Position numbers and translations under genes: made by a program. A stretch of DNA of 37,113 nt from Sulfurovum sp. (GTDB taxonomy: Bacteria; Campylobacterota; Campylobacteria; Campylobacterales; Sulfurovaceae): positions 1 through 37,113 of the forward strand of contig DYLZ01000008.1 in the NCBI GenBank assembly GCA_020721775.1, in the 5' to 3' direction. Shown one piece after another: positions 25,646 through 31,298 of the stretch. Under the pieces are notes generated by a model that searched no databases, was not told the origin of the DNA, and saw nothing but the letters and a program-made list of their open reading frames with translations. Position 1 is the first letter of the stretch. Each line of letters begins with the position of its first letter.

Positions 25646-25687
25646 TGTTATGATTCAGTTTTACAGTAATTGACCGACGGTCGGTCA
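25646..25687 (+). promoter_or_regulatory. Promoter and 17-bp TetR-type operator of the efflux operon
   Basis: TGTTATGAT is an extended -10 (hexamer 25649-25654). Seventeen bases downstream lies TGACCGACGGTCGGTCA (25671-25687), a perfect 8-1-8 palindrome covering the expected start of the transcript. This GACCGAC-type palindrome is common among operators of TetR-family repressors. It is immediately upstream of the TetR gene, so autorepression of the whole tetR-cmeDEF operon is the simplest reading. Confidence 0.75.
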
Positions 25688-25706: not shown

Positions 25707-26309
25707 ATGGCTATTACGATAGATAAAGATGAAAAAAGAAAGCAAATAGCATTTTCATGCAAAGAGTTACTTTTTCAAAATGGGATAAAAAATATTACAG
25801 TTTCTCAAATCGCAGCCCAAGCCGGCATAGGAAAAGGAACTGTTTATGAATATTTTTCGAATAAAGATGAAATTGTATTTGAAATATTAAATATATTAAT
25901 TGAGGATATGCAAAAATGGCTTGAAGAATTTTTCGATGAGCAAAAATTTAATTTTGAAGAAAAATTGAAATACTATTTATCATTTTTATTTTTACCTGAG
26001 TATGAAAAGAATCTTAAAATATATAAAGAGTTTTTGAGTATCGCAATTACAGAGGCTAGCAATGAGATGAGAGAACACGACAAGGAGTGCGTAAATAGTT
26101 TTGAGAAATTTTTGGGTAAGATGATTGAAGATGCCATTGTTATTGAAAAACTTAATTTAACAAATGATCTCATCCGAATAATTAGATTTTTTCATTTGGG
26201 TCTCGTTGTAAGAAGTTCTCTTGATGATTTTGACGCCAAAGAAGAGATAGAAAGATTTATATCTTTTGTATTGTGTAAAAATAGGGGGGGGCTGAATGAA
26301 AATAAATAA
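25707..26309 (+). CDS. TetR-family transcriptional repressor of the efflux operon
   Basis: The 200-residue protein has an N-terminal TetR helix-turn-helix (about 18-57: NGIKNITVSQIAAQAGIGKGTVYEYFSNKDEIVFEIL) and a divergent helical ligand domain. It should bind the 17-bp palindrome 20 bases upstream and release it when an effector, possibly a pump substrate, binds. AGGA precedes the ATG. The last codons contain an unbroken run of eight G. The reading frame runs through the start of the outer-membrane gene, overlapping it by 14 bases. The C-terminus would be KNRGGLNENK with eight G, KNRGG with seven, and KNRGGAE with nine, so slippage barely affects the repressor itself. Confidence 0.88.
   Translation: MAITIDKDEKRKQIAFSCKELLFQNGIKNITVSQIAAQAGIGKGTVYEYFSNKDEIVFEILNILIEDMQKWLEEFFDEQKFNFEEKLKYYLSFLFLPEYEKNLKIYKEFLSIAITEASNEMREHDKECVNSFEKFLGKMIEDAIVIEKLNLTNDLIRIIRFFHLGLVVRSSLDDFDAKEEIERFISFVLCKNRGGLNENK
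26284..26291 (+). repeat. Homopolymeric G8 tract at the tetR-cmeD junction
   Basis: Eight consecutive G, the longest G run I see in this AT-rich window, lie four bases before the cmeD ATG and inside the last codons of tetR. Homopolymeric G tracts are classic slippage sites (contingency loci) in Campylobacter and Helicobacter. Length change would alter stop-start spacing and the Shine-Dalgarno region of cmeD. Confidence 0.8.
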
Positions 26310-27549
26310 AAAAATATTATTCTTTTATGGCTTGATCAATGTTTGTTTTGCATCTGAAGTCGGACTTGACGAACTTTTAAACGGTATGATACAAAATAAT
26401 CAAACACTTAGATCATATAATTATCAAGCTCTCTCAAAAGAACAAGAACTTGAATCACAAAAGCGGTCATTTTTTCCAACTCTGGATATAGGGGCAACAT
26501 ACATAAACAGCAATCCTGCAAATATGATAAGCCCAAAAGAGACAAAAAGTATATACGGTGTCGCATCGCTTGATATATATGACGGAGGAAAGAAAAGTTC
26601 ACTTGTAAAATCCAAGTCATTTGACTATAAAGCCTCACTGTACGAGAAAGATGCATTTTCTAAAAATATGGCATTAGATATAATTCAGAGATATTTTCTC
26701 ATACAAAAACTCCAATCAAATTTGCTGGTATTGCAGATGAAATCAAAAGAGCTTGCTTATCAGATAAAAAGAGCAAAAAGTTTTGTTAAAGCAGGACTTA
26801 TGACCCAAGATGATGTCGATAAATTTCAAGCATCGTATGATGAAAATAATTATAATGTAGAAAATGTGCTTTTTTCCATAGATGAGCAAAAAGAGTATAT
26901 TCAAAGAGAAACAGGGATAGATTTTCAAGCTCTAAAAACATCATCATTGATAGAACCGGACTTAAATGTGCCTATGGATGATTTTGAAAAAACGAAAATA
27001 TTGGATGCTAGATCAAAGTCTATAAAAGAGATTGGAAATTCTGTTGGTTCCGTTACAACACCGCAGATAAAGATACAAGATACTTATACTAAATATTATT
27101 ATGATGATGATGTGTTGGCGGCAAATTCAGGTCTGTTGCTTGAGAAAAAAAATGTCCTTTCTGTTAATGCAACATGGAGAATATTTGACGGCGGGCAGAT
27201 AAGTAAACAAAAAGAAGCATACACTCTTCAAAGTCTGGCTCTACAAGAGCAAAAAATAGGCTCTATTAAAGAGCAAAAAAGTTCATTTGAACTTGCAAAG
27301 AAAAGACTAAATGCGATCAAGGCGCAAATAAAGAGTTCGATAAGCGCTCTTAGATCTGCTGATAGTACATATGAGATAGTTACTCAAAAATACGAAGCCG
27401 GCTTAGTTGATAATGTAGCATATCTTGATGCGCTAAACGCAAAAAGCGCTGCAATGTCTAGATATAAATCATCGTTGTATGATTATGAGATCGCAAAGTC
27501 ACTTTTCTACTATTTTGCCGGAAAAGATCCAAAGGAGTTTATTAAATGA
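26296..27549 (+). CDS. cmeD: Outer-membrane efflux channel (TolC family, CmeD-like)
   Basis: The 417-residue TolC-family protein has a signal peptide (MKINKKILFFYGLINVCFA) and two long coiled-coil repeats typical of the OEP fold (QNNQTLRSYNYQALSKEQELESQKRSFFPTLDIGATY and the second half ending YEAGLVDNVAYLDALNAKSAAMSRYKSSLYDYEIAKSLFYYFAG). It forms the outer-membrane duct of a tripartite pump. Gene order channel-adaptor-pump and the sizes 417/235/1014 match C. jejuni CmeD-CmeE-CmeF as I recall them. Start is four bases after the G8 tract, which doubles as the only Shine-Dalgarno-like sequence. It overlaps cmeE by four bases. Confidence 0.85.
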   Translation: MKINKKILFFYGLINVCFASEVGLDELLNGMIQNNQTLRSYNYQALSKEQELESQKRSFFPTLDIGATYINSNPANMISPKETKSIYGVASLDIYDGGKKSSLVKSKSFDYKASLYEKDAFSKNMALDIIQRYFLIQKLQSNLLVLQMKSKELAYQIKRAKSFVKAGLMTQDDVDKFQASYDENNYNVENVLFSIDEQKEYIQRETGIDFQALKTSSLIEPDLNVPMDDFEKTKILDARSKSIKEIGNSVGSVTTPQIKIQDTYTKYYYDDDVLAANSGLLLEKKNVLSVNATWRIFDGGQISKQKEAYTLQSLALQEQKIGSIKEQKSSFELAKKRLNAIKAQIKSSISALRSADSTYEIVTQKYEAGLVDNVAYLDALNAKSAAMSRYKSSLYDYEIAKSLFYYFAGKDPKEFIK

Positions 27550-28253
27550 AAAAAATATTACTTACAACTTTATTGATGTTAAATATTTCTTTTGGAGCAA
27601 ATGTATTTGCAACATTTGAAACAAAAGCGCAGAAGAGCGCAAAGCTTGCATTTAGCAGCAGCGGAATTGTGAAAAAAATATATGTAGATGTCGGCTCAAA
27701 TGTTAAAAAGGGTCAAATTTTGGCAAGTTTGCAAAATGATGATCTTTTAGCACTTGCAAATATGGCTAGATCGCAAGCTAAATTTGCATCTTTGGAGTAT
27801 CAAAGATATTCACAGGTAAAAGAGTATATCAATAAAAATCAATTGGACTCATACAAGCTCAAAAGGGACAATGCCATTACTCAGCAAAGGTATAGTGAAT
27901 CAATGTTAAATAAAACTGTTCTAAGAGCCCCGTTTAGCGGAGTAATTACATCAAAAAACATAGAGGAGGGCGATGTCGTAACATCACAGGGTGCTGCAAC
28001 AAATGCTTTTGGTATACAAAGTGTTGGATCTATGAAGCTTGTTATAAAATTTGATGCAAGATATTATGGGCTTGTAAAAGCCGGTCAGCCTTTTATTTTT
28101 CAGATAGGCGGCAAGGGAGCCAAACTAAAAACTACAATCTCTAAAGTTTATCCTAGCGTTGATGAAAAAACACAGATGGCAGTAGCAGAAGCCAAAATTG
28201 ATAACCTGCCGTCAGGATTGTTTGGCGCAGGCACTATAGTAACGGGAAAATAG
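27546..28253 (+). CDS. cmeE: Periplasmic membrane-fusion protein (CmeE-like)
   Basis: The adaptor links the RND pump to the outer-membrane channel. The 235-residue protein has a signal peptide (MKKILLTTLLMLNISFGA), a split biotinyl-lipoyl domain (SGIVKKIYVDVGSNVKKGQILASLQNDDL at the start, LRAPFSGVITSKNIEEGDVV after the hairpin), a short helical hairpin, and a beta-barrel region. It is clearly smaller than AcrA/CmeA-type adaptors, a trait shared with CmeE/HefE. It overlaps cmeD by four bases and ends immediately before the cmeF ATG, so all three are made together. Confidence 0.86.
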   Translation: MKKILLTTLLMLNISFGANVFATFETKAQKSAKLAFSSSGIVKKIYVDVGSNVKKGQILASLQNDDLLALANMARSQAKFASLEYQRYSQVKEYINKNQLDSYKLKRDNAITQQRYSESMLNKTVLRAPFSGVITSKNIEEGDVVTSQGAATNAFGIQSVGSMKLVIKFDARYYGLVKAGQPFIFQIGGKGAKLKTTISKVYPSVDEKTQMAVAEAKIDNLPSGLFGAGTIVTGK

Positions 28254-31200
28254 ATGTATAAATTTGCGATTAATAGACCTATTGCTACGCTTATGTATGC
28301 GGTAACACTGCTTATTATAGGCTCGATGGCATTTAAGAGCATGCCAACAGCACTATTTCCGAATATCGACTTTCCTATCATTACTATTCGTACTGCATAT
28401 CCCGGCGCAGAACCGTCAACGATAGAAACTCAAATTACGGACAAGATAGAAGAGGCAGTATCTGAGATATCAGGCATAGATATGATAAGCTCTACGAGCA
28501 GTAATGGTGTATCTGTAGTTGTGGTCAAATTTGTTTTAGAGAGAGATATTGAAGAGGCGGCAAATGATGTCAGAGATAAAATATCAGCAGTGCAGCTGCC
28601 TAGAGACGCTAAGCAGCCGCTCATTAGCAAGCTTGATGTGGGTAGTGCGCCGATTATAAATATATTTATAACAGCCAAAAAAGGTACTCAAAAAGAATTA
28701 ATGATGTTTGCTAATGATATAGTAAAACCTACGCTGCAAAAAGTTAACGGAGTAGGCAGAATAAATCTTATAGGCTATCAAGATAGAGCTATCAAGATAC
28801 TTCCAAATCCTTTTCTTTTAACACAGTTTGGGCTAAGCGTATCGGATTTGAACAATATAATGCTTAGTGAAAATATCAAATCTGCCGGCGGAAAACTTGT
28901 AAGCAAGACAGAAGAGTTGATCTTAAAGACAAAAAGCGATTCTTTGAGTGTCGAGGAACTTAAAAATGTAATTATCAAAGATGGTATAAGGCTTCAAGAT
29001 GTAGCAACCGTAGAAGATGGATTAAGTGATGCGCAAAGCTTTTCGTCTTACAATAATAAAAAAGGCGTTATGCTTGAAGTTCAAAAAATTTCAGGAACAA
29101 ATACCATAGAGATTATTGATACCATAAAAAATAAACTTCCGGATATTTATAAAAAAGCAGGAGACAAATATGAGATAAATATACTCAATGACACATCTGT
29201 TTACATCAAGCATTCACTAAAAGATGTTGAATTTGATCTTATTTACGGAGCATTCCTCGCAGCTGTTATAGTCTTTTTATTCCTAAGAAATTTTACTATC
29301 ACTTTGGTTTCAGCTCTTTCAATTCCTGTTTCTATAGTCGGAACATTTGCATTGATGGATTATATGGGCTATGATCTAAATAAGATGACCATGATAGGGT
29401 TAACGCTGGCAATAGGCATTATTATAGATGATGCCATCGTCGTAATAGAAAATATCAACAAAAAGATAGAAGAGGGGATGGACAAGTTTAGTGCGGCAGT
29501 CGAAGGAACAAAAGAGATGGCATTTGCGATCTTAGCAATTTCTGCAATGCTGTTAGCTGTTTTTATACCTGTTTCGTTTATGGGCGGCATTGTAGGCAGA
29601 TTTTTCAATTCATTTGCAATGACAGTCGGATTTGCCATTATTATCTCATACACGGTTGCTCTTAGTTTAATCCCAAGTCTAAGTGCTAGAGTTTTAAATA
29701 ATAAAGAAAACAGCTTCCATGTAAAAACAGAACATATATTTGTATGGCTGGAAACAAAGTATGAAAGTATTTTGAAGAGAATTTTAAATAATAGAAAAAA
29801 AACACTTTTGATCGTTTTTATTATTTTTATAGCCTCCTTAGCTCTTTTTCCAAAGATCGGTATGGATTTTATCCCAAAAGAAGATAAAAGCGAATTTGAG
29901 ATACAGGTAAAAGCAAATGCAGGAATATCCTTAGAGCAGATGATCAAAGAGTGCCAAGCGATACAAAATGTTGTCAAAAAAGACAAAAACATAGAGTTTA
30001 CAACGCTAGGTATCGGCTATAGTTCAGCTAGAGAGATACACAAAGGTTTGATCTATGTGAAATTAAAAGAAAAAGATCAAAGAAGCCTAAATCAAGAAGA
30101 GATCATCCAAGATTTGCGCAAAAAGCTCGAACCTTTCAAGAAAAAAATGTTCATAACAGTTGCGGCAATCCCAAATATTAAAGGCGCAGGCGTAAGCGTG
30201 CCTTATCAATTGGTTTTAAAATCAGATTCGCTAAAAGATCTATCAATTGCTAAAAACAATATTACAAGCTATTTATCTAAAAAAGAAGGAATTGTTGATA
30301 TAGATAGCAACCTTGAAGACACAAAGCCGCAATTAGAAATAACCATACTTAGAGAGCAGGCTGCTAGAATGGGCATCAGCGCAAAAGATATTGCAACGCT
30401 TATAAGAAATTCATTTTCAGGAGAGATTGAGATATCAAAACTAGAAGAAGACGGCAAAGAGTACAATATATTTTTAAGATTACCAGATGAGTATAGAACT
30501 GATGTAGCTAATTTGAAAATGCTCCAAATAAGATCTCCAAAAACAAATGAAATGGTATTTCTAGACGGACTTATAGACATAAAAAGAGAAAACTCTATGG
30601 CAACTATCAACAGAACTGACAGAGAAAGGCAGGTTACGGTTTTTGCAGATATTTACGGAACGGATCTGGCGAGCGCAGTGAGCTATACGGAATCAAAGAT
30701 AAAAACTCTGCTTCCGAAAGGTGTTGGATATAGATTTGTCGGTTTTGCAGAAGAGATGCAAAAAACGGCAAGCGCATTTGGTGCAGCGCTGTTTTTGTCT
30801 GTGATCTTTATGTATGTTATTTTGGCAATTCTTTATGAGTCTCTTGTTCAGCCTTTTATAATTATGGTTGCTCTGCCTCTAAGTATTTCCGGGGTATTGA
30901 TCGCTCTTTTATTAAGCGGAAATCACTTTAGCTTATTTGTTATGATAGGATTTATGCTTTTGATGGGAATGGTCGGTAAAAATGCAGTGCTTTTAGTCGA
31001 TTTTGCAAATCATGCAGTTGAAAATGGCAAAAGTATAAATGAGGCACTGCTTGAAGCAGGCAGAAAAAGACTTAGACCGATACTTATGACAACTATGGCG
31101 ATGATATTTGCAATGCTGCCTTTGGCATTTAGTAATGCCGTAGGGAGCGAAGTAAAATCACCCATGTCAATAGCCATTATCGGCGGACTCCTTAGCTCTA

Positions 31201-31298
31201 TGATATTAACATTGCTTGTTGTTCCTGCAATTTATTATATATTTTCACCATTTGACCGTTACCTAAGAAAGTGGTATGAGGGGAAAGTTAAAGAGTAG
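28254..31298 (+). CDS. cmeF: RND multidrug efflux pump, inner-membrane subunit (CmeF-like)
   Basis: The 1014-residue HAE1-type transporter has an N-terminal helix, a large periplasmic porter domain (LFPNIDFPIITIRTAYPGAEPSTIETQITDKIEEAV), and the proton-relay aspartates Asp392-Asp393 in helix 4 (LAIGIIIDDAIVVIEN). A second porter repeat follows, with the partner Lys909 in helix 10 (MGMVGKNAVLLVDFANHA). It uses proton influx to expel drugs, bile salts or dyes; the substrate range cannot be read from sequence. No frameshift is seen. It is the last gene of tetR-cmeDEF and converges with ruvX eight bases away. Confidence 0.92.
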   Translation: MYKFAINRPIATLMYAVTLLIIGSMAFKSMPTALFPNIDFPIITIRTAYPGAEPSTIETQITDKIEEAVSEISGIDMISSTSSNGVSVVVVKFVLERDIEEAANDVRDKISAVQLPRDAKQPLISKLDVGSAPIINIFITAKKGTQKELMMFANDIVKPTLQKVNGVGRINLIGYQDRAIKILPNPFLLTQFGLSVSDLNNIMLSENIKSAGGKLVSKTEELILKTKSDSLSVEELKNVIIKDGIRLQDVATVEDGLSDAQSFSSYNNKKGVMLEVQKISGTNTIEIIDTIKNKLPDIYKKAGDKYEINILNDTSVYIKHSLKDVEFDLIYGAFLAAVIVFLFLRNFTITLVSALSIPVSIVGTFALMDYMGYDLNKMTMIGLTLAIGIIIDDAIVVIENINKKIEEGMDKFSAAVEGTKEMAFAILAISAMLLAVFIPVSFMGGIVGRFFNSFAMTVGFAIIISYTVALSLIPSLSARVLNNKENSFHVKTEHIFVWLETKYESILKRILNNRKKTLLIVFIIFIASLALFPKIGMDFIPKEDKSEFEIQVKANAGISLEQMIKECQAIQNVVKKDKNIEFTTLGIGYSSAREIHKGLIYVKLKEKDQRSLNQEEIIQDLRKKLEPFKKKMFITVAAIPNIKGAGVSVPYQLVLKSDSLKDLSIAKNNITSYLSKKEGIVDIDSNLEDTKPQLEITILREQAARMGISAKDIATLIRNSFSGEIEISKLEEDGKEYNIFLRLPDEYRTDVANLKMLQIRSPKTNEMVFLDGLIDIKRENSMATINRTDRERQVTVFADIYGTDLASAVSYTESKIKTLLPKGVGYRFVGFAEEMQKTASAFGAALFLSVIFMYVILAILYESLVQPFIIMVALPLSISGVLIALLLSGNHFSLFVMIGFMLLMGMVGKNAVLLVDFANHAVENGKSINEALLEAGRKRLRPILMTTMAMIFAMLPLAFSNAVGSEVKSPMSIAIIGGLLSSMILTLLVVPAIYYIFSPFDRYLRKWYEGKVKE

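Follow-up and report, generated by a model that had tools for sequence, protein, structure and literature searches.

A G8 homopolymer at the junction between a tetR regulator gene and the outer-membrane channel gene of an efflux pump operon probably serves as the Shine-Dalgarno (SD) sequence of the channel gene, placed inside the 3′ end of tetR, and would have arisen by the drift of a G-rich SD into a slip-prone homopolymer. We infer the SD role, the slippage and a modest influence on the coupling of the two genes. The most economical account of the locus is that of an SD turned homopolymer, at a gene junction whose overlap is of an ordinary kind, and its action as a phase-variable rheostat is unproven. 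The window, i.e. the whole stretch of 37,113 nucleotides that was analysed, belongs to a 67-contig draft MAG of 1.2 Mb of Sulfurovum type, the one available genome of its species, with Sulfurovum and Sulfurovaceae MAGs as nearest named relatives. Features of the locus are compiled in the table.

Features of the tetR-pump locus, with positions in the window
Feature	Position	Strand	Evidence and remarks
17-bp perfect palindrome TGACCGACGGTCGGTCA, upstream of tetR	25671..25687	.	inverted repeat; near-invariant in 4 congeners
Segment of recombinant origin (G003/G010-like over tetR, the junction and the channel signal peptide; G001-like flanks)	25675..~26380	+	identity comparison
TetR-family regulator (200 aa), encoded by the leading gene of the pump operon	25707..26309	+	PF00440 E=2.9e-12; ORF
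G8 homopolymer	26284..26291	+	part of TetR R193-G195 codons; at the SD position of the channel gene, where the nearest relatives have AGAGGAGG
TolC-type outer-membrane channel (OEP), 417 aa, "cmeD" of the preliminary description	26296..27549	+	PF02321 E=8e-31; ORF
Periplasmic adaptor (RND MFP)	27546..28253	+	PF16576, PF13437; TIGR01730 above cut-off; ORF
RND permease	28254..31298	+	PF00873 E=4e-287; best PDB match MdtB E=1.4e-150

The Pfam content of the operon comprises TetR_N, OEP, HlyD_D23/HlyD_3 and ACR_tran. The adaptor ATG overlaps the channel stop (ATGA), and the permease starts directly 3′ of the adaptor stop. Operons of the CmeDEF type have the gene order OEP-MFP-RND, and the same order is present here under the TetR regulator; the likeness to the channel-adaptor-permease arrangement of Campylobacter is one of gene order. 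The solved structure closest to the permease is that of MdtB, and a family-model search with models at the level of CmeD, CmeE and CmeF gave no match to the operon proteins. "cmeD" is a name by analogy. The palindrome TGACCGACGGTCGGTCA is probably the operator through which TetR would act on the whole tetR-pump operon.

The tract (26284-26291) is followed by CTGA and then by the channel ATG at 26296-26298. This agrees with the preliminary description, which had located a G8 run in the last tetR codons, four bases before the channel start, and the frames that it had derived for seven, eight and nine G were confirmed on the sequence. With G7 the frame reads AAT AGG GGG GGC TGA-ATG, so that the tetR stop abuts the channel ATG; with G8 tetR remains open to a TAA at 26307-26309 and overlaps the channel ORF by 14 nt; with G9 the reading GCT GAA TGA produces an ATGA overlap of 4 nt, and G10 has the same outcome as G7. 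TetR accordingly ends in NRGG (G7), NRGGLNENK (G8) or NRGGAE (G9), i.e. with 0–5 residues after NRGG. Conservation is absent from the TetR alignment past approximately residue 190, and in the AlphaFold2 model the last helix ends at 193 and residues 195–200 have pLDDT values below 50. Because the tail is without conservation and predicted to be disordered, and the changes are confined to it, the regulator should function in any frame of the tract, and the proposition that no frame breaks the repressor could be upheld.

As the sole G/C run of at least 7 in the window and the sole G8/C8 in the 1,198,114-base assembly, the tract is also the longest G/C run of the genome, which holds 27 G6, 2 G7 and 1 G8. 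A first-order model based on window composition predicts about 44 runs of at least 6, about 7 of at least 7 and about 1.2 of at least 8 in 1.2 Mb. One G8 per genome is unremarkable, and only its position is notable. Since G runs in this genome, G8 included, are about as many as chance would give, the tract provides no evidence for a repertoire of contingency loci, and the idea that such G tracts form a set spread over this genome was rejected, no second run reaching 8. Its length is above the threshold of 7 G/C that is used for phase variation by simple sequence repeats (PMC6321876), here in a reading frame and at a regulatory position. Other G6–G7 runs of this genome were also rejected as SDs: at none of 20 places inspected, each with one G6 or G7 run, does a gene clearly begin at the distance expected of an SD.

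In the preliminary description, changes in tract length were expected to alter the SD spacing of the channel gene. This expectation was not supported, and spacing as the main effect was rejected: the 3′ edge of the run stays 4 nt from the ATG at every length, and the computed anti-SD ensemble energy is nearly flat, at −9.1 (G7), −9.4 (G8), −9.5 (G9) and −9.7 (G10) kcal/mol, for aligned spacings of 4–9 nt and assuming the usual CACCUCCU 16S tail for this genome. The flatness over 7–10 G comes from the immobile 3′ edge and from the several registers in which the run can pair. Refolding of the mRNA with tract length was also rejected, predicted local folds having energies of −10.1 to −10.2 kcal/mol throughout G7–G10. 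The G8 pairing computed for the window is weaker than that of the nearest relatives G003 and G010 (−11.6 kcal/mol) and stronger than that of G001 (−3.7 kcal/mol), with G005 at −8.6 kcal/mol. An SD-like sequence 4–9 nt before the start, with a pairing energy of −9.4 kcal/mol on the assumed 16S tail, is thus located in the 3′ end of tetR, within a gene pair whose stop and start overlap by 14 nt.

Conservation of the tract in relatives, proposed at the outset as a check, was not borne out, and was rejected: G8 is absent in every relative examined. In the two relatives whose TetR is closest (90% and 86% identical), this site holds the canonical SD AGAGGAGG, and the TTG start behind it shares bases with the TetR stop (TTGA), in the form AGAGGAGGTTC(G/A)AA-TTGA. 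In a second genome collection, which counts in again the genomes of the two closest relatives, 30 of the 45 tetR-channel junctions feature a 4-nt NTGA overlap and 6 of 45 TAATG, and a G run longer than 3 was found in 0/45. The window junction has a net gain of 5 nt relative to G003, or of 6 nt with G9. On this comparison the window appears as an outlier in which the SD has become a G run, TTG has become ATG, and tetR is one base short of the family-standard register.

The history of the locus involved exchange between species. The identity of tetR is 92% to G003 and 59% to G001; both flanks are 93–94% identical to G001 and 74–80% to G003. The tetR allele was thus swapped across species; one breakpoint lies in or adjoins the shared palindrome, and the other is in the region of the channel signal peptide. 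The exchanged piece includes the G8 tract, which its G003 and G010 versions lack.

G runs at SD positions are also evident elsewhere in the family. Runs of G9–G10 are found 4–6 nt before the ATG of genes for an RDD-family protein (L168, G010), a lipoprotein-like protein (L170, G009) and a response regulator with an HD domain (L185, G085), each near position 1501 of its locus. A LysM-protein gene has G9 at its SD position, just before position 1501, in one species, G005 (L195), and G5 in two others, G007 (L196) and G008 (L197), so that the length of a G-run SD differs here from species to species. This suggests that SDs of Sulfurovaceae occasionally drift into G runs. Among 30 loci examined with runs of G8 or more about 3–8 nt before an ATG, the window locus counted in, 14 have an ORF of at least 80 aa downstream. 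Across the family, the pattern G8-N3-8-ATG has 132 matches compared to 68 for the reversed pattern, which points the same way but is a weak, poorly controlled signal given that ATG and GTA backgrounds differ and longer runs were counted repeatedly. A query with the first 30 residues of the G010 RDD protein, whose gene has the G9 SD, retrieved no orthologues in the genus.

Other long G runs were encountered in the same survey. In G010, a G9 (L132 1501-1509; G010:C15:7548-7556) lies inside a C5-cytosine DNA methyltransferase gene with PF00145 matches in different frames on either side, as is typical of candidates for on/off phase variation. The longest G runs of the genus, a G13 (L127, G006:C2:311108-311120) and a G11 (L123, G007:C22:67752-67762), are located in short ORFs or intergenic DNA.

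With respect to slippage, no match to MutL (PF01119) was found in the genome under study (G000) or in 20 relatives, the control set being matched in 11/14 genomes; these genomes apparently lack MutSL-type mismatch repair. In Campylobacter jejuni NCTC 11168, every poly-G/C tract of at least 8 varies (PMC6321876). Taken together, these two observations make slippage at the G8 tract plausible. We envisage, under the preferred reading of a drifted SD, that an ancestral start region of the form AGAGGAGG-TTG(A) would have been remodelled to AGGGGGGGG-ATG in this lineage, and that the remodelled SD would have drifted to a homopolymer for which several registers of pairing with the 16S tail may remain. 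The tract would probably slip at the rate to be expected as background for G8 where MutSL mismatch repair is lacking, and would thereby chiefly shift the tetR stop, which overlaps the channel start by 14 nt (G8), abuts the ATG (G7, G10) or overlaps it by the family-standard 4 nt (G9). TetR and the strength of the SD would presumably be little affected. Against this reading, the presence of the longest G/C run of the genome at a regulator-pump junction leaves room for selection.

An alternative is the phase-variable rheostat of the preliminary description. Slippage, being reversible, would here reset termination-reinitiation where the channel gene begins and so tune the pump while TetR remains intact. 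Altered tetR-channel coupling is possible, and that part of the original claim stood insofar as the stop does move relative to the ATG with tract length. In E. coli, reinitiation is strongly distance-dependent where the stop lies upstream of the start, dropping strongly with intergenic distance (PMC10666635), and 4-nt overlaps are coupled as a rule (PMC6728339). The channel-adaptor and adaptor-permease junctions are tight as well, so that an effect could spread along the operon, and the lack of a MutL match in G000 and 20 relatives and the variability of the C. jejuni tracts fit this alternative too. However, none of the three stop positions is more than 14 nt from the ATG, computed SD strength and local folding barely change, G8 runs are present at chance number, the tract is missing from all relatives examined, and the species is represented by a single sequence with one length. 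No published test of a 14-nt overlap for reinitiation was found, nor was any literature combining Sulfurovum, homopolymeric tracts and phase variation, or homopolymeric tracts, translational coupling and phase variation. On balance we consider the rheostat unlikely, with a modest residual chance of being correct.

Rather improbable, too, is that the true or majority allele has G9 or another length, and that G8 is an artefact of assembly or of consensus calling, or else one of several alleles in a mixed population. One additional G would return tetR to the usual register of the family, that of the nearest relatives and of the 30 junctions with the ordinary 4-nt overlap (here ATGA), and the genome is a 67-contig draft. 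The window register may reflect contraction, a different local history or consensus error. Nevertheless, short-read consensus is seldom wrong at homopolymers of 8 bases, and the bases flanking the tract were remodelled as well, so that the frame need not be ancestral.

Slippage could also be non-genetic, polymerase or ribosome slipping on G8 such that mRNAs each give rise to mixed TetR ends and stop positions near the ATG. GGG-GGG is a possible slip site, and both +1 (TGA at 26293) and −1 (TGA at 26297) shifts would place a stop in contact with the channel ATG; but the tract is not conserved, and we regard this process as very unlikely to account for it. That phase variation at the C-terminus alters the function of TetR itself is the least credible proposal, as 3′-end poly-G tracts do change a few C-terminal residues in Helicobacter canadensis (PMC2823697) and Neisseria gonorrhoeae (PMC5320596) but the TetR tail past 194 is predicted to be disordered and is not conserved.

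By analogy, C-terminal phase variation would still be the closest named kind (PMC2823697; PMC5320596). The G8 tract, at the 3′ end of its gene, changes C-terminal residues with length; poly-G in the last codons with only the C-terminus altered is common to the H. canadensis and gonococcal cases, some of which also touch the junction with the next gene. The H. canadensis examples are G13–G14 and the gonococcal ones G6–G8, compared to G8 here, and several of these tracts vary in length between strains or within a population, whereas the window tract is known from one sequence. The preferred reading, a drifted SD, has its parallels in overlapping gene pairs with intragenic SDs (Huber et al. 2019, PMC6728339; 2023, PMC10666635), in which the SD is normally located inside the 3′ end of the upstream gene and start and stop overlap, as they do by 4 nt (NTGA) in relatives of the window. 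Unlike those pairs, with overlaps of 4 or 1, the window has a pure G run as its probable SD and an overlap of 14 nt. Two cases from Mycobacterium tuberculosis are also related. In the espR 5′UTR, a one-base change in a G run was proposed to alter translation via access to the ribosome site (PMC11898584), but that tract works through RNA folding from a position 144 bp upstream, whereas the window tract would be the SD itself, with a constant predicted fold. In Rv0678, indels in a G run affect an efflux-pump regulator (PMC9184757), but they knock out the repressor, which in the window is predicted to survive every frame.

A broader proposal would have a homopolymeric SD at an overlapping regulator-pump junction act as a three-state genetic rheostat with the repressor intact, and similar G-run SDs of unrelated genes in Sulfurovaceae as further instances of "SD phase variation"; we hold this to be quite improbable. 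If the tract did tune coupling, it would represent a graded phase variation at the level of translation that usual screens for ON/OFF frames miss, and one occurring in a free-living sulphur-oxidising relative of Campylobacter. At present the locus stands as one slip-prone SD in one draft genome, and the more useful outcome may be a testable set of G-run SDs at several unrelated genes of the family.
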